Virus record (IMG/VR): IMGVR_UViG_3300032323_001847
Span: 1 to 25,280 of that record
Source of the DNA: a virus
Reading direction: 5' to 3' (one strand)
DNA length: 25,280 nt
Below, piece after piece: positions 3,769 through 25,216 of the stretch. Made by a program: the position numbers and the translations under genes. The notes below the pieces were generated by a model. The model worked only from the letters and a program-made list of their open reading frames with translations, was not told the DNA's origin and searched no databases. Position 1 is the stretch's first letter, and each line of letters begins with the position of its first letter.

Positions 3769-5343
3769 ATGACTCAAGACAACTTAACTGCCAAGCAGAA
3801 TGATTATGCAGTCTTTCTGCCGGCCATCTCGGGCTTCTATGCTACATTTGTGGGCAAGCAACGTGATCCTGTAAACGGGCCTTATGTAGATCCTGCTCGC
3901 ATGCCTGCTGGCATACAGGACATGGAACAGATGAACTGGCTCAATGATCAAAAGGGCCTGTTCCCTTACAAGTGGAGTCTGTATTCAGGCGGTCATGCCA
4001 ACTTGGATTTAAACAAGCAGGACTGGTCCGAAGACATGGTTCGCAATCGCGATCCCAACACGCTGATGCTGGGTGACTCGGGCGGATTCCAGATTGCCAA
4101 GGGCCTGTGGGAAGGTGATTGGAAGGCCAACTCGGGTTGTCTCAAAGCACAGAAGAAGCGTGAAGCTGTGCTTAAATGGTTAGACAATATCAGTGACTAT
4201 TGCATGACATTGGATATTCCAACCTGGGTCATTCATGATAAAAATGCCAGTGACAAGTGCCAGATCAGCACGCTACAAGAAGCTGTAGACGCTACCAAGT
4301 ACAACAACGAATACTTCATGGCCAATCGCAAGGGCAAGCATAATGGTGGCACTAAAATCTTAAACGTGCTACAAGGTGCCAATCATGCCGATGCCGATCG
4401 TTGGTATGACATTATGAAACACTATTGCGATCCTGTCCAGTATCCAGACACTCACTTTGATGGCTGGGCCATGGGTGGTCAAAACATGTGTGACGTACAC
4501 TTGGTACTAAAAAGATTAGTAGCACTACGCCATGACAACTTGTTACAAGAAGGTGTGCATGATTGGATGCACTTCTTGGGTACAAGTAAACTAGAGTGGG
4601 CAGTGTTGCTTACCGATATACAGAGAGCAATAAGAAAATATGTTAATCCTTCTTTCACTATTAGTTTTGATTGTGCTTCGCCGTTCTTGGCAACGGCAAA
4701 TGGGCAAGTCTATCACCACATAGATCTTCCACACAACGACAAGTGGTGCTACCGTATGAGTCCTATTGTGGATGACAAAAAGTATGCCACAGACACACGT
4801 CAGTTTGGCCCTGCAGTGCTGGCCGACGGTCTGATCAGTCATTTTGATGAAAGTCCAATCAGTCAGCAGTTGCAAATGAAAGACATCTGTATCTACAAAC
4901 CAGGTGATTTAAACAAGATTGGTAAAGAAGGTAAAACCAGTTGGGATAGTTTCAGCTATGCCTTGTTGATGGGACACAATGTTTGGATGCACATCGAAGC
5001 GGTACAACGTGCCAATCGTGAATACGACAACGGTTCTTGGCCTGCCATGATGTGGAATCAAAACGGAGACCATGCCCGATTCAAAGACATTGTGGATGCT
5101 ATATTTGCCACTCCGAACCGTGAAGAAGCCGAAGCTATAATTGAACATTATGACCGTTATTGGATGGACATTGTGGGCACACGTGGATTCAAAGGCAAAA
5201 AAGCCAAAAATGCACACAGTCAATTCAATGCTTTGTTCGAAACCGTTGACGATTCCGAGGAAGATAGTGTACAATTAGATGAAGACTTTAGCCCGGACCA
5301 ACAGGCCCGATTAGATCAACTCGAACATGATCAAATACAATGA
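3769..5343 (+). CDS. dpdA: DpdA-like 7-deazaguanine DNA transglycosylase (TGT superfamily)
   Basis: The protein has 524 residues and TGT-fold signatures in the right order. GDSGGFQ (102-108) carries the substrate-binding Asp103, TLDIPTW contains Asp149, LQG is at 201-203 and GWAMGG at 232-237. SFDCASP (299-305) places Asp301 at the nucleophile position of tRNA-guanine transglycosylase. The CxCxxC zinc motif of bacterial and archaeal TGT is absent, which argues against an ordinary tRNA enzyme. TGT paralogues of this kind (DpdA) exchange guanine in DNA for a 7-deazaguanine base, and folE, queD and queE for making that base lie further on in this window. The C-terminal 30 residues are very acidic. 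The ATG lies 3 bases after the clamp stop with no clear ribosome binding site, suggesting coupling to gp45. The family is well supported; DNA rather than RNA as substrate is inferred. Confidence 0.85.
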   Translation: MTQDNLTAKQNDYAVFLPAISGFYATFVGKQRDPVNGPYVDPARMPAGIQDMEQMNWLNDQKGLFPYKWSLYSGGHANLDLNKQDWSEDMVRNRDPNTLMLGDSGGFQIAKGLWEGDWKANSGCLKAQKKREAVLKWLDNISDYCMTLDIPTWVIHDKNASDKCQISTLQEAVDATKYNNEYFMANRKGKHNGGTKILNVLQGANHADADRWYDIMKHYCDPVQYPDTHFDGWAMGGQNMCDVHLVLKRLVALRHDNLLQEGVHDWMHFLGTSKLEWAVLLTDIQRAIRKYVNPSFTISFDCASPFLATANGQVYHHIDLPHNDKWCYRMSPIVDDKKYATDTRQFGPAVLADGLISHFDESPISQQLQMKDICIYKPGDLNKIGKEGKTSWDSFSYALLMGHNVWMHIEAVQRANREYDNGSWPAMMWNQNGDHARFKDIVDAIFATPNREEAEAIIEHYDRYWMDIVGTRGFKGKKAKNAHSQFNALFETVDDSEEDSVQLDEDFSPDQQARLDQLEHDQIQ

Positions 5344-10742: not shown

Positions 10743-12508
10743 AAAAAATTACCATTAGAAACAACAACATTGTATGGTACAATGCTTTACATTTTGGGTA
10801 TGATATTCTTACCAACCCAGATCAAATTTTAGATCAAATTTCCAGAGATCTACAGGACAGTGAACTGGAGTTTGACTCCATGCGTGACAAAAAATTGTTG
10901 GTAAACTTTGTAGGCGAAGGGCATGATCCAAGCACTGTGCAACCTTTAATCCAACAGTTGAACACATGGCCGGTGTTGGATCGTGTGATTGTGTTTAGCA
11001 GTTCTATAGACACACATGAGCTTGATTATACAGCATGGTCATTTGATGACCTTATGATCAATCACGGTAGATGGTTTGATTGCATAAAGGTACTGGATGC
11101 AAGTCTTCAAGTCGATTGCAAATTTTTATGTCTTATGCGTAGACCTAGTATTAGTCGTGCAAGACTGGCCAATGATCTATTAAACAAGATTCACAGTATG
11201 CAATTGAGTTTTGGTTGTATGAGCACCGCAGAAGTATTAGCCAACTACCAAGCTCATATCCCAAATCACGCATTGCCTGTCATTGTTGATGGCATAACAG
11301 ACCGCAATCATGGACCCAGTGAACATGATCAATCCAGTAGTGTTTTCCGTCATTGTTTGTTTAACATAGTGGTAGAAAGCAGCAGTCAAACTGATCCAGG
11401 CATTTGGCGTAGTATTTTTATCACAGAAAAAACCTTCAAGGCATTTGGTCTTCGACAAATTCCTATCTGGATGGCAGTGCCTGGCTTGGTTGCTCGTGTA
11501 AGAGCCATGGGCTTTGACATGTTTGATGATATCATTGACCACAGTTACGACAACATTATTGATGAAGATCTTAGACGACAAAGTGTTGTAGATCAAATAC
11601 AACAATTGAATCAACAGTTTGATCTGGATCAATGTCAAACCTTAAGAAACAGTTTGAAGACCAGATTAGAAAACAACTATCAACTATTGATCACAAGATA
11701 TCACGATAGTAGTATCAAGTTTAACAACATGCTTGAACAGTTTGCAGATTTTGTTCCGCCACAGTTGTTGATCTTTGGCGACTCATGGCCACATGGTGAC
11801 GAACTACAGATTCATGACATTGCCTATGGAGAACTGTTGGCACAACAGTTAGGCATTGCTACGGTAAAAAATTATTCCGAACCCGGCACCGGCATAGGTC
11901 ATATGATTCTACAATTGCAAACAGCCATGCAATCCAATGCGCACACCACTGGAAAAAAAATTGCAGTATTTTTTCTCAGTGGTCAAGAAAGGCATCTGTG
12001 TTACTGTGATGACAAAATTTTAAATTTAAATATTCGCGGCCCCAGAATCAATCCAGAAAACGATCCACACATGGCCGAGTTGGTCAACAACATGTACTAT
12101 AAGTATTTTTATTCAGACCAGATGCGTGATTTTTACATGAATACGCATGTACTGGCCTTGCAGTCTTTGTGCCGTTATCATGAAATTGATGACTATTACA
12201 TTGCTGGGTGGCAATCGTTTGATTTCTGGCCCGAAATAGATCTAGAACGAATTTATGATCGGGGTCGTACCAGTTGTCGCGAACTATTGAACATGGAGTT
12301 TGACAATCGCGACGGTGTGGTGTTTGACAATGTGTACTTTAGCCCAAATCGGTCACATCCAAATCAACTGGGCCATCAGAAGATAGCAGACTGTTTGTAT
12401 GATTGGATAAAATCAAAATCTCTTGACACTGACCTAAATAACCTTTACAATAGCAACAAGACTGGTCATCCTCGACCACAACAAATAACTCGGAGAATTA
12501 CAAATTGA
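10739..12508 (+). CDS. Two-part protein: glycosyltransferase-like N-terminus plus C-terminal SGNH hydrolase
   Basis: The protein has 589 residues. Residues 1-340 contain an ITEKTFKAFGLRQIPIWMAVPG block followed by GFDMFDDIIDHSYD. This pattern is familiar from phage glycosyltransferase/fucosyltransferase-like proteins, though the exact family is uncertain. Residues 343-580 form an SGNH/GDSL-type domain: FGDSW with Ser349 (block I), GTGIGH (block II-like Gly), and NRSHPNQLGH with His540 (block V), where Asn replaces the usual Asp. SGNH domains remove or add acyl groups on glycans. A transferase fused to an esterase would fit modification of one sugar product. Both ends lie in 4-bp overlaps (TTGA with folE). 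A candidate folE promoter lies inside its 3' end. Confidence 0.75.
   Translation: MKKITIRNNNIVWYNALHFGYDILTNPDQILDQISRDLQDSELEFDSMRDKKLLVNFVGEGHDPSTVQPLIQQLNTWPVLDRVIVFSSSIDTHELDYTAWSFDDLMINHGRWFDCIKVLDASLQVDCKFLCLMRRPSISRARLANDLLNKIHSMQLSFGCMSTAEVLANYQAHIPNHALPVIVDGITDRNHGPSEHDQSSSVFRHCLFNIVVESSSQTDPGIWRSIFITEKTFKAFGLRQIPIWMAVPGLVARVRAMGFDMFDDIIDHSYDNIIDEDLRRQSVVDQIQQLNQQFDLDQCQTLRNSLKTRLENNYQLLITRYHDSSIKFNNMLEQFADFVPPQLLIFGDSWPHGDELQIHDIAYGELLAQQLGIATVKNYSEPGTGIGHMILQLQTAMQSNAHTTGKKIAVFFLSGQERHLCYCDDKILNLNIRGPRINPENDPHMAELVNNMYYKYFYSDQMRDFYMNTHVLALQSLCRYHEIDDYYIAGWQSFDFWPEIDLERIYDRGRTSCRELLNMEFDNRDGVVFDNVYFSPNRSHPNQLGHQKIADCLYDWIKSKSLDTDLNNLYNSNKTGHPRPQQITRRITN
12423..12451 (+). promoter_or_regulatory. 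Candidate sigma70 promoter for folE
   Basis: TTGACA (12423-12428), 17 bases, TACAAT (12446-12451): a perfect -35, a five-of-six -10 and ideal spacing, placed inside the end of the preceding gene and 54 bases before the folE start. The spacer also contains CTAAATA (12434-12440), which resembles the core of the T4-type late promoter TATAAATA. Transcription would start near 12458. Confidence 0.6.
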
Positions 12509-13233
12509 CAGATAAACAAACAGCACTAGACGGCGGGTACAAAGAATCATATCTGGGCGATGCTATTCGCTCTAAGATGAAACGTGAAGGCAAGCGTTTC
12601 TGGGCAGGAGACAACATTTCTGCCTATGTCTCAGAAGAAGACAAATCACAACTGATCGACGAAGCTACCGAAGCATTTGAAACAGTGTTAGATAGATTGC
12701 TGATTGATCGTGAAAATGATCCAAACTCTAAAGGCACAGCAAGACGCTTGGCCAAGATGTACTTTAACGAAATCATGGGAGGTAGATATGATCCAGCACC
12801 AGATGCAACAGCTTTCCCAAATGATAGCCAAGATAGATATGAAGGCATGCTTGTGGTTCGTAGCGAATTGCGTAGTATGTGTAGTCACCATCATCAGCCT
12901 GTATCTGGCGTTGCTTACATTGGTATTATTGCTGCCAACAAACTTATTGGCTTATCTAAGTACACTCGTATTGCTCAGTGGTGTGCTCGTCGCGGTACTT
13001 TACAAGAAGAACTCTGCAACGACATTGCCAGAGAAATAAGCCGAGCCACAGATTCCTCAAACATTGGTGTATACATTCAAGCCACACACGGATGTTGCGA
13101 AAACCGAGGAATAATGGCCCACTCCAGTCTAACACAGACCACAGTGTTGCGTGGTGTGTTTAGCACAGACCCAGCAGTTAAAAAAGAGTTCATGGACAAT
13201 ATCAAACTACAACAGGAGTTTGCGCCAAGATGA
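12505..13233 (+). CDS. folE: GTP cyclohydrolase I
   Basis: The 242-residue FolE converts GTP to 7,8-dihydroneopterin triphosphate, the first step toward 7-deazaguanines and folate. Zinc ligands are visible: Cys126 and His129 in SMCSHHH and Cys197 in HGCCENRG. IGLSKYTRIAQWCARR and LTQTTVLRGVF are core FolE motifs, and the length fits the family. The start is TTG 12505 in a TTGA overlap with the preceding stop. GGAG at 12492-12495 at good spacing supports TTG, and no in-frame ATG lies near it. With queD and queE in the same window its likely job is to feed CDG synthesis for DNA modification rather than host folate. The HIT gene follows by a 4-bp overlap. Confidence 0.95.
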   Translation: MTDKQTALDGGYKESYLGDAIRSKMKREGKRFWAGDNISAYVSEEDKSQLIDEATEAFETVLDRLLIDRENDPNSKGTARRLAKMYFNEIMGGRYDPAPDATAFPNDSQDRYEGMLVVRSELRSMCSHHHQPVSGVAYIGIIAANKLIGLSKYTRIAQWCARRGTLQEELCNDIAREISRATDSSNIGVYIQATHGCCENRGIMAHSSLTQTTVLRGVFSTDPAVKKEFMDNIKLQQEFAPR

Positions 13234-13598
13234 CCCTAGTCGAAGCACAACAAGCGGGCATTGCTCCTTGGGATCAACAAGTAGATGAAAAGCCTATGAC
13301 CGTGGTTTATCTTGACTGTTATCCATGTACACCCGGACACAGATTGTATGTGCCCAAGGACAACGACAATGCCAACTGGGTAGTCAGAGCTTTTGAAGAT
13401 GCCTTGTGTGATGGCAACTGGATGGTTGAACAGGGTGAATGCGACGGGTTCAATATTGGCTTAAACATGGGAGTAGTTGCCGGGCAAACTGTGATGTACC
13501 CGCACGTGCATCTTATACCCAGACGTGCAGGGGATGTCGAAGATCCTGTGGGCGGAGTCAGAAATACTATACCCGGCAAAGGCAACTATCGTAAATAG
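13230..13598 (+). CDS. HIT-family protein (nucleotide hydrolase/transferase)
   Basis: The protein has 122 residues with the HIT fold signature: CTPGHRLYVPK near residues 33-43, NIGLNMGVVAGQTV (the usual G-x-N-x-G-x-x-A-G-Q segment), and YPHVHLIPRR. The last corresponds to the triad H-x-H-x-H, with Tyr90 in place of the first His while the central nucleophile His92 and His94 are kept. The tail GDVEDPVGGVRNTIPGKGNY matches bacterial HIT hydrolases. Family members cleave nucleoside phosphoramidates, Ap4A-like dinucleotides or related nucleotides. It is coupled to folE by ATGA. It may clean up a nucleotide by-product of the deazaguanine pathway, but that is only a positional guess. Confidence 0.88.
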   Translation: MTLVEAQQAGIAPWDQQVDEKPMTVVYLDCYPCTPGHRLYVPKDNDNANWVVRAFEDALCDGNWMVEQGECDGFNIGLNMGVVAGQTVMYPHVHLIPRRAGDVEDPVGGVRNTIPGKGNYRK

Positions 13599-13629
13599 CA
13601 ACACAGCGGTCTCTATGGCGTCATCCCGC

Positions 13630-13658
13630 TCGACAAATTCTGCCGCCTATGCTAAAAT
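13630..13658 (+). promoter_or_regulatory. Candidate extended -10 sigma70 promoter for queD
   Basis: TCGACA (13630-13635), 17 bases, TAAAAT (13653-13658), with TG at 13650-13651 giving an extended -10. It lies in the 78-base gap between the HIT gene and queD, one of the few true intergenic gaps in this region. Transcription would start near 13665, and the ribosome binding site TAGGAG lies at 13665-13670. Confidence 0.6.
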
Positions 13659-13668
13659 CTAACATAGG
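13646..13668. repeat. Inverted repeat across the queD -10 box and ribosome binding site
   Basis: CCTATG (13646-13651) and CATAGG (13663-13668) are perfect inverted repeats with an 11-base centre that contains the -10 box. The right arm overlaps the ribosome binding site. It could be an operator for a repressor. Most of the left arm lies upstream of the predicted transcription start, so an RNA hairpin would form only in read-through transcripts. Confidence 0.45.
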
Positions 13669-13676
13669 AGATAATT

Positions 13677-14201
13677 ATGGCAACTTACGTTTCAACAAAA
13701 ACATATGGCAATGATAGAGGTCTAAGCTGTTGCTTTAGACAATGGCGTAGTACCCACAGTCATTGCTCACTACTACACGGATACTCAATTGGTATCAAAT
13801 TAATCTTTGAATCAGAAACATTGGATGACCGCAACTGGGTCATGGACTTTGGTGGGCTTAAAGCGTTTAAAGAATGGTCAGAATACATGTTTGATCATAC
13901 CTTGGTTGTTGCAGAAGACGATCCCCATTTAAAAATGTTTGAAATCATGGCTGCCATGGGCTTGCAAGATCAAGGCGGTGTGTGTGATTTAAGAATTGTT
14001 CCTGGTGTGGGTTGCGAAAAGTTCAGTGAGCTGGCATATTGGGAAATGAAACATATTCTTGAAACATTTCAGCGAGGCAAAGAGTACACAGTACCAAATG
14101 GCCAAACATTTTCTGCACGTTATCCGGTTGGGCTTGGAGTGAAATTACGCAGTGTAGAAGTATTCGAGCACGCTGGAAATTCCGCCATCTATGAAGGATA
14201 A
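13677..14201 (+). CDS. queD: 6-carboxytetrahydropterin synthase-type T-fold enzyme (QueD)
   Basis: The 174-residue protein is expected to turn dihydroneopterin triphosphate into 6-carboxy-5,6,7,8-tetrahydropterin. HSHCSLLHGYS (27-37) holds the catalytic Cys30 and metal-site histidines 27/29 and 34, followed by WVMDFGGLKAF (the xxxDFxxLK strand and helix) and EYMFDHTLVV (the LDH motif of QueD). The third zinc ligand is normally the second His of HGH; here it is Tyr36. I believe this HGY form recurs in a phage and bacterial QueD subgroup, so it need not mean inactivity. The start ATG 13677 has TAGGAG at good spacing and a dedicated promoter. It acts between folE and queE in the CDG route. Confidence 0.88.
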   Translation: MATYVSTKTYGNDRGLSCCFRQWRSTHSHCSLLHGYSIGIKLIFESETLDDRNWVMDFGGLKAFKEWSEYMFDHTLVVAEDDPHLKMFEIMAAMGLQDQGGVCDLRIVPGVGCEKFSELAYWEMKHILETFQRGKEYTVPNGQTFSARYPVGLGVKLRSVEVFEHAGNSAIYEG

Positions 14202-14211
14202 TATTGATTCA

Positions 14212-15024
14212 ATGACAAATCTCTATCAAATCTCTGTGTTACTGCCCACTAGAGGTAGAACAACTGCACTGACCAACAGCATAGAAAGCCTGGTAACAAA
14301 CTGCTCCAACACAGACAATATAGAAATATTGTTAGGGCTGGATCAAGATGACACAATTGGACGCGATCATTTTTTAACCCAGATCAAACCATATCTTGAC
14401 AATGCCGGAGTGGCTTATTGTGCTATAGAATTTGAACCCATGGGTTATACTGGACTCAATCGCTATTACAACGGTCTGGCCGAAAAATCACAGGCAGATT
14501 GGTTGTTTGTGTGGAACGACGATGCTGTGATGAACACCCAGGGATGGGATCAAGTGGTTGATCAATACCAAGGACAGTTTAGGTTGTTGAAAATACACAC
14601 CCACAACGAACATCCTTACAGCATATTTCCAATTTATCCACGCGAATGGTATGACCTGTTTGGATTCCTAGCCAGACATCAAATGATTGATGCCGAACTT
14701 AGTCAGATAGCTTACATGTTGGATCTAATGACCATTGTTGAAATCTATGCCACGCACGATCGTGCCGACTTGACGGGCAACAACAAAGATAGCACATTCC
14801 AAGACAAAGTGATCTATGAAGGCAATCCAGACAATCCTTTGGATTTTCATCATGTCAATTACACCACAGCTCGCAAGCAAGATTGCGAAACCATCAGTCA
14901 ATACTTGCAAAACAAAGGTCATGACATGAAATTTTGGCAGGCAGTCAAAGCTGGAACTCAGAATCCATGGGAAAAACTTCGTGCCAACGACATCAACAAC
15001 CAATGCGTGCAAAGGGCCACATGA
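14212..15024 (+). CDS. GT2-type (GT-A fold) glycosyltransferase
   Basis: The protein has 270 residues from ATG 14212, just after the queD stop. An in-frame ATG at 14191 overlapping queD would add 7 residues and lacks a ribosome binding site, whereas AAGGAT lies upstream of 14212. ISVLLPTRGR begins a GT-A fold, LGLDQDD follows at strand 2, and WNDDAV gives the Asp103-Asp104 metal- and sugar-binding motif (DxD-like). The middle and C-terminus, with several His and acidic residues, are less typical. The acceptor is unknown. It is coupled by ATGA to a nucleotide-sugar dehydrogenase-like gene and is probably part of the same sugar assembly route. Confidence 0.8.
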   Translation: MTNLYQISVLLPTRGRTTALTNSIESLVTNCSNTDNIEILLGLDQDDTIGRDHFLTQIKPYLDNAGVAYCAIEFEPMGYTGLNRYYNGLAEKSQADWLFVWNDDAVMNTQGWDQVVDQYQGQFRLLKIHTHNEHPYSIFPIYPREWYDLFGFLARHQMIDAELSQIAYMLDLMTIVEIYATHDRADLTGNNKDSTFQDKVIYEGNPDNPLDFHHVNYTTARKQDCETISQYLQNKGHDMKFWQAVKAGTQNPWEKLRANDINNQCVQRAT

Positions 15025-15791
15025 ACCTAGGAGTAATAGGCAAAGGAACTGTAGGAAGTGCTGTGTATGATGGGTTACAACAACTAGATCATCGCATGTG
15101 TTTTTTTGATCCTGCTGTGGCCGTCAGTCGATTTGAACATGTACTAGACACTCAGTGTGTTTTTATTTGTGTTCCTACCAATCAAAATGCCAACGGCGAT
15201 TGTGATGTCAGCATAGTTGAGTCAGTGATCAAACAGTTAAGTCAGCATAATTATTCAGGACTGGTGGCTATCAAAAGCACAGTGATTCCGGGTACCACCG
15301 ACCGACTCAGCCAACAATACAAGAATTTAAAAATCTGCAACGTGCCAGAATTTCTACGTGCCAGACTGGCCTTGGAGGATTTTGTTGATCAAGATGTATT
15401 GGTTATAGGCAGCACTTGTGGTGAAGATTATGAACTTGTAACAGAAATACACGGACATTATCCCAGACAGGTCAGTTGTGTAACACCTGCAGAGGCAGAG
15501 ATTATCAAATATTTCAACAATGTGAATCACAGTGTGCAAATTATATTTGCCAATATCATGTTTGAAATTTGCAAGAAATTTGGTGCCGAGTATCAAAATG
15601 TGTATGATACCATAGTACAACGTGATTGTTTTAACAGTGCCTATCTGGACTGCAATGATCAAATGCGTGGATTTGGCGGCCACTGCTTGCCCAAAGATAC
15701 TTCTGCCCTGTCTAACTTGATTAATCAACTGGGACTGGATTATGATTTGATCAGGGCAACCATAGCAGACAATCAAAAATTATCCAAATGA
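15021..15791 (+). CDS. Short UDP-glucose/GDP-mannose dehydrogenase-like protein
   Basis: The protein has 256 residues from ATG 15021, chosen because it overlaps the previous stop by ATGA and begins with the Rossmann loop GVIGKGTVGSAV. FICVPTNQN and IKSTVIPGTT match the NAD-domain motifs of UDP-glucose 6-dehydrogenases, AEIIKYFNN matches the central helix, and GFGGHCLPKD carries the catalytic Cys222. The family normally has 390-450 residues with a C-terminal nucleotide-binding domain. That domain is missing, the frame ends cleanly, and the next gene starts at once. It may work as a reduced oxidase forming a sugar acid, or with the longer dehydrogenase encoded at 18176. Activity is uncertain but the catalytic Cys is present. 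Confidence 0.8.
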   Translation: MNLGVIGKGTVGSAVYDGLQQLDHRMCFFDPAVAVSRFEHVLDTQCVFICVPTNQNANGDCDVSIVESVIKQLSQHNYSGLVAIKSTVIPGTTDRLSQQYKNLKICNVPEFLRARLALEDFVDQDVLVIGSTCGEDYELVTEIHGHYPRQVSCVTPAEAEIIKYFNNVNHSVQIIFANIMFEICKKFGAEYQNVYDTIVQRDCFNSAYLDCNDQMRGFGGHCLPKDTSALSNLINQLGLDYDLIRATIADNQKLSK

Positions 15792-16675
15792 GCAAAATAC
15801 TTTTAACTGGCGGAGCAGGCTTGTTGGGGCGAGAACTGTGCCAACAACTGATGAATCAAGGACACGAAGTTTGGATCATTGATAATCTCAGCCGCAGTCA
15901 GATCATTCCAGACTGCACCAAGTTTATCAAGGCAGACATTAGCGACAGTCAAACCTTTGCGTTTTTGCCCACAGATTTTGAGTATATCTATCATTACGGT
16001 GCTATCAATGGAACCTCTAATTTTTATGACAGGCCCAATCAAGTATTGACTTCTAACTTTACAGGCGATATCAAAACTTTTGAGTTTGCTGAACGTTGTT
16101 ACAATCTTATCAGAATAGTCTATGCCAGTAGCAGTGAAATACCTGCCGGCGAGTCTGGTGCTATACCAGAGCTAGTAGATGTCCGAATCAACAACATACA
16201 CAATCCCAGATGGAGTTATAGACTGGCCAAAATTACCAGTGAAAACTATTTGGCCAACAGTGCGTTGCCTTATGTGATGATTAGATATTACAATGTGTAT
16301 GGTGCAGACGATGCCCCTGGTCACTTCCTGCCCGATCAAATTGCCAAAATCAAATCTGGTGTGTTTGAAATTGTAGGTGGCAATGAAACCAGAAGTTTTT
16401 GCCACGTGGAAGACGCTTGCCAAGCTACCATTTATTGTGCAGAACACACCAACCGACAATTGATCAATATAGGAAATGATGTTGAAACCACAGTAAGTGA
16501 TGCTGCACAAACTATTGCTCACGCATTGGGGCACAGCAATCCTATTTGGACTCATTTACCAAGTCGACCTGGGTCTACTCCAACTCGATGCCCAGACATC
16601 AGCAGATTAAAAAATATCATGCCACATTTTGATCCCAGAACGTTTGAGCAAGGTATACGGCAAATATTGAGTTGA
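15788..16675 (+). CDS. NAD-dependent epimerase/dehydratase (extended SDR)
   Basis: The protein has 295 residues. LLTGGAGLLG is the GxxGxxG NAD-binding loop (Gly8, 11, 14), ASSSEI is the Ser region, and WSYRLAK gives Tyr144 and Lys148. MIRYYNVYG and RSFCHVEDACQA are typical of nucleotide-sugar SDRs such as UDP-glucuronate decarboxylases, dTDP-glucose dehydratases and GDP-sugar epimerases. The 4-bp overlap with a UDP-glucose-dehydrogenase-like gene suggests the two act in sequence on a UDP-sugar acid, but the exact product cannot be read. It is distinct from the GalE-like gene at 8060. Confidence 0.85.
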   Translation: MSKILLTGGAGLLGRELCQQLMNQGHEVWIIDNLSRSQIIPDCTKFIKADISDSQTFAFLPTDFEYIYHYGAINGTSNFYDRPNQVLTSNFTGDIKTFEFAERCYNLIRIVYASSSEIPAGESGAIPELVDVRINNIHNPRWSYRLAKITSENYLANSALPYVMIRYYNVYGADDAPGHFLPDQIAKIKSGVFEIVGGNETRSFCHVEDACQATIYCAEHTNRQLINIGNDVETTVSDAAQTIAHALGHSNPIWTHLPSRPGSTPTRCPDISRLKNIMPHFDPRTFEQGIRQILS

Positions 16676-16700
16676 TTATTTGCACAAAGTTGTGTATAAT
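16672..16700 (+). promoter_or_regulatory. Candidate sigma70 promoter for the phosphoribosyltransferase-queE unit
   Basis: TTGATT (16672-16677), 17 bases, TATAAT (16695-16700), located in the 53-base gap after the SDR gene. CTAAATA follows at 16701-16707 and resembles the core of T4-type late promoters. Transcription would start near 16707, 22 bases before the gene. Confidence 0.55.
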
Positions 16701-16728
16701 CTAAATATATTACTCTTTTGAATTTAAC

Positions 16729-17265
16729 ATGAAAAAAATCTATCATACTTGGCAAGACGTTGAAGGTCAAACGCAGGAAATTTTGCGTCAACTTGTGCAG
16801 TCCAACTGGCGTCCAGATTATGTAGTTGGGCTCACACGTGGAGGTCTGGTGCCAGCTAATTTAATCAGTCAATATCTTGAGTGCAGAATGGAAACATTAA
16901 AAGTCAGTCTGCGTGATAGCGAGCAACAAGAAAGCAACTTGTGGATGGCTGAAGATGCGTTTGGATATTCTACTCATGATCCAATGGCATCAGGCGACGG
17001 ACGTAAAAATATTTTGATTGTTGATGATATCAACGATACCGGTGCCACATTGAACTGGATCAAACAAGATTGGGAAAACAGTTGTTTGCCCAAAGACAAA
17101 CGTTGGAAACAAGTTTGGGGCAACAATGTGCGTGTGGCCTGCTTGTATGACAACGAGTCAAGCAAGAGCAAATTGGATGTTGCCTATTCGGCTGTGACTA
17201 TCAACAAAGCCGCAGAGAATGCATGGATAGTTTTTCCATGGGAAAACTGGTGGCAATCTAAATAA
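16729..17265 (+). CDS. Purine-type phosphoribosyltransferase
   Basis: The protein has 178 residues. The PRPP-binding motif ILIVDDINDTGATL (95-108) with paired acidic Asp99-Asp100 is diagnostic of type I phosphoribosyltransferases. VVGLTRGGLVPANLIS is the N-terminal PPi-loop region (RGG). The C-terminal AENAWIVFPWENWW resembles the hood end of xanthine/guanine or hypoxanthine enzymes. It likely salvages a purine base to its nucleotide; the base (guanine, xanthine or possibly a deazapurine) is not fixed by the sequence. There is no clear ribosome binding site before ATG 16729, although a candidate promoter lies close upstream. queE follows after 23 bases and is probably co-transcribed. Confidence 0.85.
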   Translation: MKKIYHTWQDVEGQTQEILRQLVQSNWRPDYVVGLTRGGLVPANLISQYLECRMETLKVSLRDSEQQESNLWMAEDAFGYSTHDPMASGDGRKNILIVDDINDTGATLNWIKQDWENSCLPKDKRWKQVWGNNVRVACLYDNESSKSKLDVAYSAVTINKAAENAWIVFPWENWWQSK

Positions 17266-17288
17266 AGTTACAAAAACAAAGGTCAGAG

Positions 17289-18179
17289 ATGAGTAAAATT
17301 AAAGTTTCAGAAGTATTCTACAGTCTACAAGGCGAAGGTCGATTTGTGGGTGTTCCCAGTGTGTTCTTACGCACTTATGGTTGTAACTTTACCTGTAGTG
17401 GATTTGGATGTAAGCCGGGTGAAACTAGCACAGGTGCAGACGAAGTTGCCAAGTCAGTGGAGTTGTACAAAACATTCAACGACTTGCCATTGGTAGAAAC
17501 CGGTTGTGACAGTTATGCATCGTGGCATCCGGCCTACAAACACCTGAGTCCAACACAGACCACAGAAGAACTGGTAGAACGTATGTTGGCGTTGACTCCC
17601 AACAATGCGTGGGCACAGAACAATGGCAACGACGTACATCTTGTGATCACTGGCGGAGAACCTTTGCTGGGCTGGCAACGTGCTTATGCAGAATTGCTAA
17701 GTCATCCTCGCATGGCAGACCTAAAGAACATTACATTCGAAACCAATGGCACTCAAGAATTACACAAAGACTTTAGCCATTATTTGCTTAACTGGACACT
17801 AAATTCTAAAACATATAGTGGTAACGTAGCACGTGGTCCCGAAGCATTGACCTTTAGCGTTAGTGCTAAATTGTCAGCAAGTGGTGAAAGTTGGGAAGAA
17901 GCAATTCGCCCAGATATTGTAATGAGTTATGCTAATATTGGCCACACTTATTTAAAGTTTGTGGTCGAAACTGATGAACATATTAGAGACGCCATTCGTG
18001 CCACTGATGAGTATCGTCGTGCAGGATTTAAAGGAGTTATTTATTTGATGCCGCAAGGTGGCGTAGTTGAGCCATACGACAAAAACAAATTGCGTATTGC
18101 TAACATTTGCGTAGAGCAAGGCTGGTATTACAGTCCTAGACTGCATGTAGATCTCTGGGGCAACGGATGGGGCAAATGA
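17289..18179 (+). CDS. queE: 7-carboxy-7-deazaguanine synthase-type radical SAM enzyme (QueE)
   Basis: The 296-residue protein is expected to convert 6-carboxytetrahydropterin to CDG using a [4Fe-4S] cluster and SAM. FYSLQGEGRFVGVPSVFLR is the QueE start motif. Cys32 and Cys36 (CNFTC) are the first two cluster ligands. The CD(S/T) ending of the usual CxxxCxxC reads TGCDSYASW, so the third ligand is probably Cys73, 36 residues after Cys36, with the intervening insert carrying an extra Cys41. ITGGEPLLGW is the GGE motif for SAM, and FETNGTQ is a further QueE motif. The start ATG 17289 has AAAGGT about ten bases before it. The end overlaps the next start by ATGA. The call is firm; the insert appears to be a phage-type variant. 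Confidence 0.92.
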   Translation: MSKIKVSEVFYSLQGEGRFVGVPSVFLRTYGCNFTCSGFGCKPGETSTGADEVAKSVELYKTFNDLPLVETGCDSYASWHPAYKHLSPTQTTEELVERMLALTPNNAWAQNNGNDVHLVITGGEPLLGWQRAYAELLSHPRMADLKNITFETNGTQELHKDFSHYLLNWTLNSKTYSGNVARGPEALTFSVSAKLSASGESWEEAIRPDIVMSYANIGHTYLKFVVETDEHIRDAIRATDEYRRAGFKGVIYLMPQGGVVEPYDKNKLRIANICVEQGWYYSPRLHVDLWGNGWGK

Positions 18180-23628: not shown

Positions 23629-23705
23629 GGGCCGTTAGCTCAGTTGGTCAGAGCAGAGGACTCATAATCCTTTGGTCCTAGGTTCAAGTCCTAGACGGCC
23701 CACCA
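23629..23705 (+). tRNA. tRNA with anticodon CAU (probably Ile2, possibly elongator Met)
   Basis: A complete cloverleaf of 77 bases. The acceptor stem GGGCCGT/ACGGCCC pairs perfectly, there is a D arm with AGTTGGTCA loop, the anticodon stem GAGGA/TCCTT has loop CTCATAA (anticodon 23663-23665), the T stem CTAGG/CCTAG has loop TTCAAGT, and ACCA is encoded. The GACTCATAATC arm and the TTGGTC variable region resemble bacterial tRNA-Ile2, whose C34 is changed to lysidine to read AUA, more than elongator Met. It is not an initiator tRNA by its acceptor stem. It has a strong promoter of its own. Confidence 0.93.
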
Positions 23706-23994: not shown

Positions 23995-24011
23995 TGGTGG
24001 GTCGGCTCTGT

Positions 24012-24040
24012 TTGACACATAAATAGGTGTGTCGTATAAT
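24012..24040 (+). promoter_or_regulatory. Perfect-consensus sigma70 promoter of the tmRNA gene
   Basis: TTGACA (24012-24017), exactly 17 bases, TATAAT (24035-24040): both hexamers match the consensus fully. Transcription should start near 24047, just before the tmRNA acceptor piece. The spacer contains CATAAATA (24018-24025), a T4-late-like motif, and a dyad GACACA/TGTGTC. Confidence 0.85.
24014..24033. repeat. Operator-like dyad inside the tmRNA promoter spacer
   Basis: GACACA (24014-24019) and TGTGTC (24028-24033) are a perfect inverted repeat with an 8-base centre, filling the space between the -35 and -10 boxes. A protein bound here would cover the promoter. It may also be a chance result of a short AT-rich spacer. 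Confidence 0.4.
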
Positions 24041-24046
24041 AACGAT

Positions 24047-24374
24047 ATTGTTGTAATTCCTTCCAAGTGAAGGCACTGTGGACGGGAGTTCGATTCTCCC
24101 CGGGTCCACCAAAAGTATATTGCGGGTGCGAGAACAACGCAGAAATGTGTTTGTTGATCCGGCAACTTGGAACGACTCACTCTTGTTGCGTTACAATATA
24201 CTTCTGATGGGCCCGACCGGTTTCGACATGGTGAGCTAGTGCGGACGGCAACAGGCAAGGCGAAGGACCTAATCCTAGCAACTCTATTAAATGCAAACGC
24301 ATCTAATGACGAGGTATTTGCCTTAGCGGCATGATCTCCGGGGCAACTATGCCTTGTTACTCAAAATAGTTCAG
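24047..24374 (+). ncRNA. ssrA: Circularly permuted, two-piece tmRNA gene
   Basis: tmRNA rescues stalled ribosomes and tags the unfinished protein. Here the gene is permuted: the acceptor piece comes first. It has the T arm GGGAG-TTCGATT-CTCCC and then CGGGTCC-ACCA at 24101-24111. The coding piece starts at 24209 with GGGCCCG, which pairs with CGGGTCC over 7 bp (one G-T pair) to rebuild the acceptor stem; AGTGC in the coding piece can pair with GCACT in the acceptor piece. A 97-base intervening segment (24112-24208) separates them. The tag frame starts at GCA 24293 and encodes ANASNDEVFALAA, stop TGA 24332-24334; the LAA end is the usual protease signal. The 3' end of the coding piece is approximate. 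The promoter and terminator are its own. A 119-codon reverse-strand frame across it is not a gene. Confidence 0.92.
24113..24203. repeat. Inverted repeat enclosing the tmRNA intervening segment
   Basis: AAGTATATTG (24113-24122) and CAATATACTT (24194-24203) are perfect 10-base inverted repeats right after the acceptor CCA and just before the coding piece. They would fold the removed segment into a stem that brings the two acceptor-stem strands together in the precursor. Confidence 0.8.
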
Positions 24375-24400
24375 AAAAGCCTGGTTTTCCAGGCTTTTTT
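24375..24400 (+). terminator. Intrinsic terminator of the tmRNA
   Basis: AAAAGCCTGG-TTTT-CCAGGCTTTTTT: a 6-bp GC-rich stem extended by A-T pairs, a tetraloop and a run of six T. It ends the tmRNA transcript and separates it from the following outer-membrane gene. Confidence 0.93.
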
Positions 24401-24401
24401 G

Positions 24402-24475: not shown

Positions 24476-25216
24476 ATGAAAAAACTATTAATCGCATTAG
24501 CTTTGTCCGCTGGCTTTGTGGCCTCGGCTCAAGCTCAACTCACCGGCAATTTAGGTTTGACCAGCGACTACCGTTTCCGCGGTGTTAGCCAAACCCAAAA
24601 TGCTCCTGCAGTTCAGGGCGGCATCGACTATGCACACAAGAGTGGCTTCTACGTTGGTAACTGGAACAGCTCGGTCTCTAGCCAAGTCTACACCAATGGT
24701 GCAGGCGTTGAAAGCGACCTCTACGCTGGTTACAAGAAAGAAATTTTCAAGGGCATTTCGATTGACATCGGTAGCTACAATTATTTCTATCCACGTGCAA
24801 CCACTTCTGCAGCCACTGGCAGCAACTTTGACACCTACGAAGGCTTTGTCGGATTAGGTTACAAGGACATTATCAGTGCCAAGTATAGTCAAACCTTGGG
24901 CAATGGTTACTTCGGTACCGCCAATGCTCGTGGCACCAGCTATACTCAAATTGACGGCAAGTTACCAGTTCCCAAAGTTAAGAATCTGGCTGTAGTTGCT
25001 CACTATGGTATGACCAATGTGGCCAACAGTTCGGCATATGATTACAACGACATCAACGCAGGCTTTGTTTATACATTGCCACACGAATTTGATTTGGGTG
25101 TCAAGTACTATACCAACACTGGCATGAGCAATGCTTTCCAGGCCTTTAACACTGTTAGTGGCCAGAAACTGTACAAAAATGCAGTTGTGTTTTCTTTGAC
25201 AAAAACTTTTAAATAA
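24476..25216 (+). CDS. Outer-membrane beta-barrel protein, Gcw_chp/TorF-type putative porin
   Basis: The protein has 246 residues. A clear Sec signal peptide (MKKLLIALALSAGFVASAQA, cleavage after AQA) is followed by LTGNLGLTSDYRFRGVSQTQNAPAVQGGID, the typical opening of the TIGR02001/Gcw_chp family of proteobacterial outer-membrane proteins, and by alternating aromatic/hydrophobic beta strands to the end. The ending SLTKTFK places Lys after the Phe that usually closes such barrels for BAM recognition. AAGGAAA lies 8-9 bases before ATG 24476. Its composition looks more GC-rich than the neighbouring phage genes, and it has its own leader and terminator, so it looks like a host-derived cargo gene. 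It may alter the surface or permeability of the infected cell; the actual role is unknown. Confidence 0.88.
   Translation: MKKLLIALALSAGFVASAQAQLTGNLGLTSDYRFRGVSQTQNAPAVQGGIDYAHKSGFYVGNWNSSVSSQVYTNGAGVESDLYAGYKKEIFKGISIDIGSYNYFYPRATTSAATGSNFDTYEGFVGLGYKDIISAKYSQTLGNGYFGTANARGTSYTQIDGKLPVPKVKNLAVVAHYGMTNVANSSAYDYNDINAGFVYTLPHEFDLGVKYYTNTGMSNAFQAFNTVSGQKLYKNAVVFSLTKTFK

Follow-up and report, generated by a model that had tools for sequence, protein, structure and literature searches.

Does a fragment of phage DNA encode a working transfer-messenger RNA (tmRNA), and what would a phage use it for? The question is raised by an IMG/VR virus record of 25,280 bases (IMGVR_UViG_3300032323_001847; hereafter the window, meaning the whole stretch analyzed), a fragment near whose end the original prediction placed a circularly permuted, two-piece tmRNA gene with the acceptor half ahead of the coding half and 7 bp of pairing between the acceptor strands. 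The sequence, cmscan and ARAGORN agree on this architecture, and we consider it likely that a working two-piece tmRNA is made from the gene, that it is of the permuted type seen in betaproteobacteria, and that it serves in host-assisted ribosome rescue and tagging. As judged from sequence, the element is a genuine and probably functional new case of the phage two-piece tmRNAs already known. What goes beyond the known cases is that its phage group carries recurrently rewritten tags, and that many members also have a phage ClpX, often with a ClpP, in the same genomes.

The proposed Infernal search against the Rfam two-piece models returned two matches above the curated cut-offs. Beta_tmRNA (RF01850) aligns end to end over positions 23998-24400 (124.5 bits, E = 7e-38, cut-off 84), and tmRNA_permuted (RF04321) covers 24049-24334 (118.6 bits, cut-off 47). 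ARAGORN also reports a permuted tmRNA, with a 13-residue tag, ANASNDEVFALAA, whose frame closes with a stop codon and has a degradation-type C-terminus. The acceptor half precedes the coding half, and the two are joined by seven pairs that include G3-U70, the alanine identity signal; A73 and an encoded CCA complete the acceptor end. A loose pattern of T arm plus acceptor matches the window once and none of 100 shuffles. The promoter and terminator that had been claimed for the gene are both present, the latter a hairpin of 13 pairs ending in T, and a search for pseudoknot partners located a pseudoknot after the tag (Table 1). The fold, charging signal, conserved tag frame and transcription signals of the gene are thus supported at the level of the DNA.

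Table 1. Features of the tmRNA locus in the window (pN/pS, ratio of nonsynonymous to synonymous polymorphism)
Feature	Position	Strand	Basis or remark
Sigma-70 promoter, TTGACA-17 bp-TATAAT	24012..24040	+	12/12 consensus letters
Acceptor piece: 5' segment paired to the coding piece, then T arm, acceptor 3' strand, A73, CCA	24049..24111	+	cmscan RF04321/RF01850 alignment, sequence
T arm	24084-24100	+	T stem 24084-24088/24096-24100
Acceptor 3' strand CGGGTCC	24101-24107	+	then A73 at 24108, encoded CCA 24109-24111
Intervening sequence, absent from mature RNA	24112..24208	+	predicted
Pairing ends of intervening sequence, AAGTATATTG and CAATATACTT	24113-24122 and 24194-24203	+	would lengthen precursor acceptor helix
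Coding piece: GGGCCCG, GGTTTCGAC, pseudoknots, tag frame	24209..24371	+	cmscan, ARAGORN
Acceptor 5' strand GGGCCCG	24209-24215	+	GGTTTCGAC after it
Tag reading frame ANASNDEVFALAA, stop TGA	24293..24334	+	ARAGORN; pN/pS 0.13 among relatives of same tag class
Pseudoknot 3' of tag, CGGGG/CCTTG and AACTA/TAGTT	24339..24371	+	kept in relatives with altered pairs
Intrinsic terminator hairpin, AAAAGCCTGG-TTTT-CCAGGCTTTT	24372..24401	+	fold -19.7 kcal/mol
TorF-family (Gcw_chp) porin gene	24476-25216		directly downstream of tmRNA

To compare relatives, we collected viral contigs by way of the exonuclease, the porin and two tmRNA patterns; they yielded 120 distinct permuted tmRNA genes, counting the one in the window. 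All seven acceptor pairs are kept in 118 of the 119 genes in which the stem was located, and pair 3-70, for which the search did not score, is G-U in 118 of 119. Pairs 4-6 vary in a compensatory manner among G-C, C-G, A-T and T-A. Among 80 distinct relatives the two ends of the intervening sequence are complementary over a mean run of 10.25 bases (3.6 in shuffles) despite their varied sequences, which suggests that the precursor acceptor helix is maintained; a first test of this pairing had found nothing because its permitted offset was too small, and the signal became strong once 4-5 unpaired bases beside the coding piece were permitted. The post-tag pseudoknot occurs in 58% of relatives versus 26% of shuffles, with compensated pairs such as GTTAT/ATAAC, ATTAT/ATAAT and ACTAT/ATAGT. 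Upstream of the gene, 30 of 119 relatives have a promoter matching 11 or 12 of the 12 consensus letters (maximum in shuffled sequence, 9), and a terminator-like hairpin follows the tag in 103 of 120. A minority of phage tmRNAs, including L084 and L098, have a T loop reading GGCAGAA or GGCGGAG instead of TTCGATT.

The tags fall into several families. One set is host-like and has 10 residues (ANDEQFALAA, ANDSVYSLAA), the window's set has 13 (ANASNDEVFALAA, ANAANDEVFALAA), and a long set of 27-31 residues follows the plan ANAS-TGEVTVSGKNVKFSARTVKAESFAV with a C-terminus of LAV or FAV; another family has the core SFTGN, and others start with TFEF or similar. Across families the rewritten long tags span 24-31 residues, one family ending in LAV/FAV instead of LAA. 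In the tag frame, pN/pS is 0.13 in the window's class, 0.26 among the 10-residue tags and 0.09-0.24 in the SFTGN class, and the other two frames behave oppositely in all three, a pattern that points to purifying selection on these tags. Every confident open reading frame match in the fetched loci was a tmRNA tag frame. Searching 50,697 phage records for the main long tag gave no match, and Pfam and PHROGs returned nothing for it or for the other long tags tested; the idea that it derives from an HU-like protein or from some other known one was dropped, since solved structures also gave nothing better than E 0.1. The window's tag had been described as its own 13-residue variant: the length stands, but many related viral contigs carry the same tag, so it is not peculiar to this one. 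Comparison with candidate hosts showed the window-type tag in 0 of 399 sampled genomes of the order Burkholderiales, where the bacterial tags read are of the 10-residue AND-type, bar a few odd ARAGORN calls. One of these, L500 (G305:C1), is a chromosomal permuted tmRNA with a 28-residue tag lacking an Ala-Ala end, which may be a misread frame.

The phage location of the gene, claimed at the outset, is borne out by the gene context of the window and of its relatives. The contig belongs to a group of jumbo T4-like phages, with freshwater bacteria as the presumed hosts, and around the tmRNA lie genes of phage type, encoding a family B DNA polymerase, a 5'-3' exonuclease, GTP cyclohydrolase, QueD- and QueE-like proteins and sugar-nucleotide enzymes. 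The description of the phage as lytic-type, by comparison, goes beyond what a 25-kb fragment can show. The DNA polymerase is nearest to those of jumbo phages such as Sinorhizobium phage Phosso and Agrobacterium phage Atu_ph07 (43-49%); an attempt to name the host through cultured relatives failed, since the closest polymerases share less than 50% identity and belong to jumbo phages that infect other hosts. The porin, possibly a receptor-masking or membrane protein, is most similar to sequences from jumbo-phage contigs (up to 91%), while its cellular relatives are far more distant and nearly all betaproteobacterial. Because its best full-range cellular relatives are from Burkholderiales (up to 46% identity), the host is probably betaproteobacterial. 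A tRNA with anticodon CAT (23629-23705) precedes the tmRNA promoter by about 300 bases. The GTP cyclohydrolase, QueD-like and QueE-like genes, within 12505-18179, are a possible 7-deazaguanine DNA modification pathway, and a 524-residue protein (3769-5343) with no match in Pfam or PHROG could be a transglycosylase.

For the use of the RNA during infection, the reliance on host SmpB and the benefit to the phage, we infer the following course. A single transcript would run from the promoter to the terminator at 24401, the acceptor stem would close over the intervening loop, and cleavage at about 24111/24112 and 24208/24209 by RNase P and the 3' maturation enzymes of tRNA processing would leave two paired pieces. 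Host alanyl-tRNA synthetase would recognize G3-U70 and charge the tmRNA, host SmpB and EF-Tu would deliver it to ribosomes that have stalled on a broken mRNA, and the tag would be appended to the unfinished protein. SmpB was sought in 31 related phage records (the largest 320 kb) and none was found; 27 of these records, many of them fragments, have a tmRNA gene, 26 over the cut-off. Ribosomes would stay available while mRNAs are being cut, and the phage would pick the tag. The likeliest role is the one first suggested: a ribosome rescue of the phage's own, or a substitute for the host's tag. In the wider group, tagged proteins may be routed partly to a phage-encoded protease, because the tag there has repeatedly been rewritten and ClpX and ClpP are encoded by many members.

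Full-length ClpX (467-519 bits, cut-off 371) and canonical ClpP (217-272 bits) are found among related phages, and five records (G028, G356, G361, G364 and G369) combine both with a tmRNA. The ClpX residues that hold the ssrA tag include Thr199 in pore loop 2 and Arg228 and His230 in the RKH loop (PMC7652416). Among 151 phage ClpX sequences, 104 combine Thr with RKH, and residues 199 and 230 are both changed in 34. In the 14 genomes for which both tag and ClpX are known, ClpX is altered at both sites in 4 of 4 with LAV tags versus 2 of 10 with LAA or MAA (p ~0.015, for a split chosen after the data were seen). The altered ClpX sequences are essentially a single clade, well supported and with 28 members (26 changed at both sites, 2 at His230 only). 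This clade holds all four LAV genomes and both exceptions in a tree that leaves out three tagged genomes with RKH (L540, L542, L545), and the altered sequences therefore amount to one evolutionary contrast, not several. A strict rule drawn from the first six genomes, pairing LAA tags with RKH and LAV tags with non-RKH ClpX, failed at 14, four LAA-tag phages having RKS or RKN. The correlation, confined to one clade and with two exceptions, suggests a lead linking tag end and ClpX residues. It is possible, if speculative, that these jumbo phages run a private disposal line consisting of a tmRNA whose tag has been rewritten (up to 31 residues, LAV/FAV in one family), a ClpX changed at the equivalents of E. 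coli Thr199 and His230, and a phage ClpP; products of stalled ribosomes would then escape host ClpXP/SspB and be handled by the phage.

The tag differences could instead be neutral, any tag freeing the ribosome and rescue capacity being the sole gain to the phage, an explanation that we regard as rather unlikely but worth keeping. Ribosome release requires a stop codon and not a particular tag, and tags vary widely in the group. Acceptor types are common to all tag classes, so the gene appears to be modular, with parts that recombine freely. However, the recurrence of long families with conserved residues and the low pN/pS of the 13-residue and SFTGN classes count against neutrality. Purifying selection also makes it improbable that the phage RNA acts as a brake that titrates SmpB or blocks host trans-translation in the manner of the tRNA-like-domain-only tmRNA of mycobacteriophage DS6A. 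Inhibition of host tmRNA by a phage tmRNA is on record (PMC11915505, PMC4131195), but a decoy would need none of the coding piece, pseudoknot, tag frame and stop that are all kept here. Since integration often targets tmRNA genes (PMC11915505), the gene might be a passenger of no benefit, either a bacterial tmRNA caught by chance or a relic of such integration; this is very unlikely, given its retention across many contigs with compensatory changes under purifying selection and the different tags of the sampled Burkholderiales genomes. That a bacterial contig was misfiled as viral is scarcely credible, for although the adjacent porin is of a family otherwise bacterial, the window's genes are largely phage-like, its DNA polymerase is nearest to jumbo phages, and the tmRNA-porin pair recurs in viral contigs of up to 320 kb.

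Several points weigh against our interpretation of a functional, phage-borne tmRNA. The acceptor-stem search chose the best-pairing candidate, which somewhat inflates the count of fully paired stems but leaves the fixed G3-U70 unaffected. The pN/pS signal of the main long-tag class is weak (0.75-0.80), and the evidence for selection there is weaker because many copies were fetched using a pattern inside the tag and the codons are unusually uniform. The only evidence for the host is the neighboring porin (best 46% identity), and, the window being a fragment, ClpX/ClpP and SmpB content was read from the records of relatives. Nevertheless, the covariance models, the covariation in 119 genes, the purifying selection on the tag and the phage context together support a permuted phage tmRNA.

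Bacteria and isolate phages differ in the form of the gene. In 27 betaproteobacterial genomes reached via the porin, one-piece tmRNA exceeds the cut-off in 19, and permuted tmRNA does so in two Rhodocyclales and in two assembled genomes that also hold a one-piece gene; among 300 genomes of the order Burkholderiales, permuted tmRNA exceeds it in 12. Permuted genes unannotated in the deposited records are present in the isolate Achromobacter phage JWDelta (L519, KF787094.1, 19736-20120; tag ANDDYIRLAA, as read in the alignment) and Tunturiibacter phage Tunturi_5 (L520), and another is in Sinorhizobium phage Phosso. The Achromobacter genome sampled, from A. aloeverae, has one-piece tmRNA only. 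A Herminiimonas metagenome-assembled genome with a one-piece gene elsewhere carries a second, permuted tmRNA beside tRNA-Ala on a bacterial-looking contig (L205, G004:C102), with the odd tag ANDANYLVQVYG. L204 (G021:C132), with tag ANDEMFDVRLAA, is from a Burkholderiales assembly also holding a one-piece gene, and its contig may be phage.

The betaproteobacterial two-piece tmRNAs of RF01850/RF04321 share with the window the gene order, G3-U70 acceptor pairing, GGTTTCGAC, post-tag pseudoknot and encoded CCA. Bacterial copies score up to 331 bits versus the window's 124.5, and the window differs in its 13-residue tag and phage location. Phage-borne permuted tmRNAs from aquatic settings are also known from methylophage Melnitz and other aquatic phages, with 53 two-piece forms among 133 unique phage tmRNA structures, mostly aquatic (PMC9004378). 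The Melnitz tmRNA is foreign to its host lineage, as may be true of the window phage; it is of the alphaproteobacterial type with a glutamine riboswitch, whereas the window gene is of the betaproteobacterial type with a consensus promoter. The tmRNA database lists 79 phage sequences (PMC11915505), and tmRNA and SmpB are reported in huge phages (PMC7162821). Sinorhizobium jumbo phage AP-J-162, like the present group, combines a single tmRNA with several Clp genes, clpX among them, but the accessible part of its description does not connect the tmRNA to ClpX or discuss the tag (PMC11242549).

A phrase search of the open literature for phage-encoded ClpX or ClpP found nothing, and no account of recurrent long phage tags was found there, most subscription journals lying outside its scope. 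In Mycoplasma and Mesoplasma, the tmRNA is a one-piece bacterial gene. Long ssrA tags in these Mollicutes are read by Lon (PMC9382460) and, like the long phage tags, have an altered C-terminus; the protease switch known there is possible in phages, which differ in tag sequence and in carrying ClpX/ClpP.

The two-piece RNA of JWDelta, set against the one-piece gene in the sampled genome of its host genus, raises the question of why phages favor the two-piece form. Why phages carry tmRNA at all is a standing question, and the rewritten tags together with phage ClpX/ClpP make a phage-controlled tag-and-degrade route directly testable. The same combination could provide new degron/unfoldase pairs.
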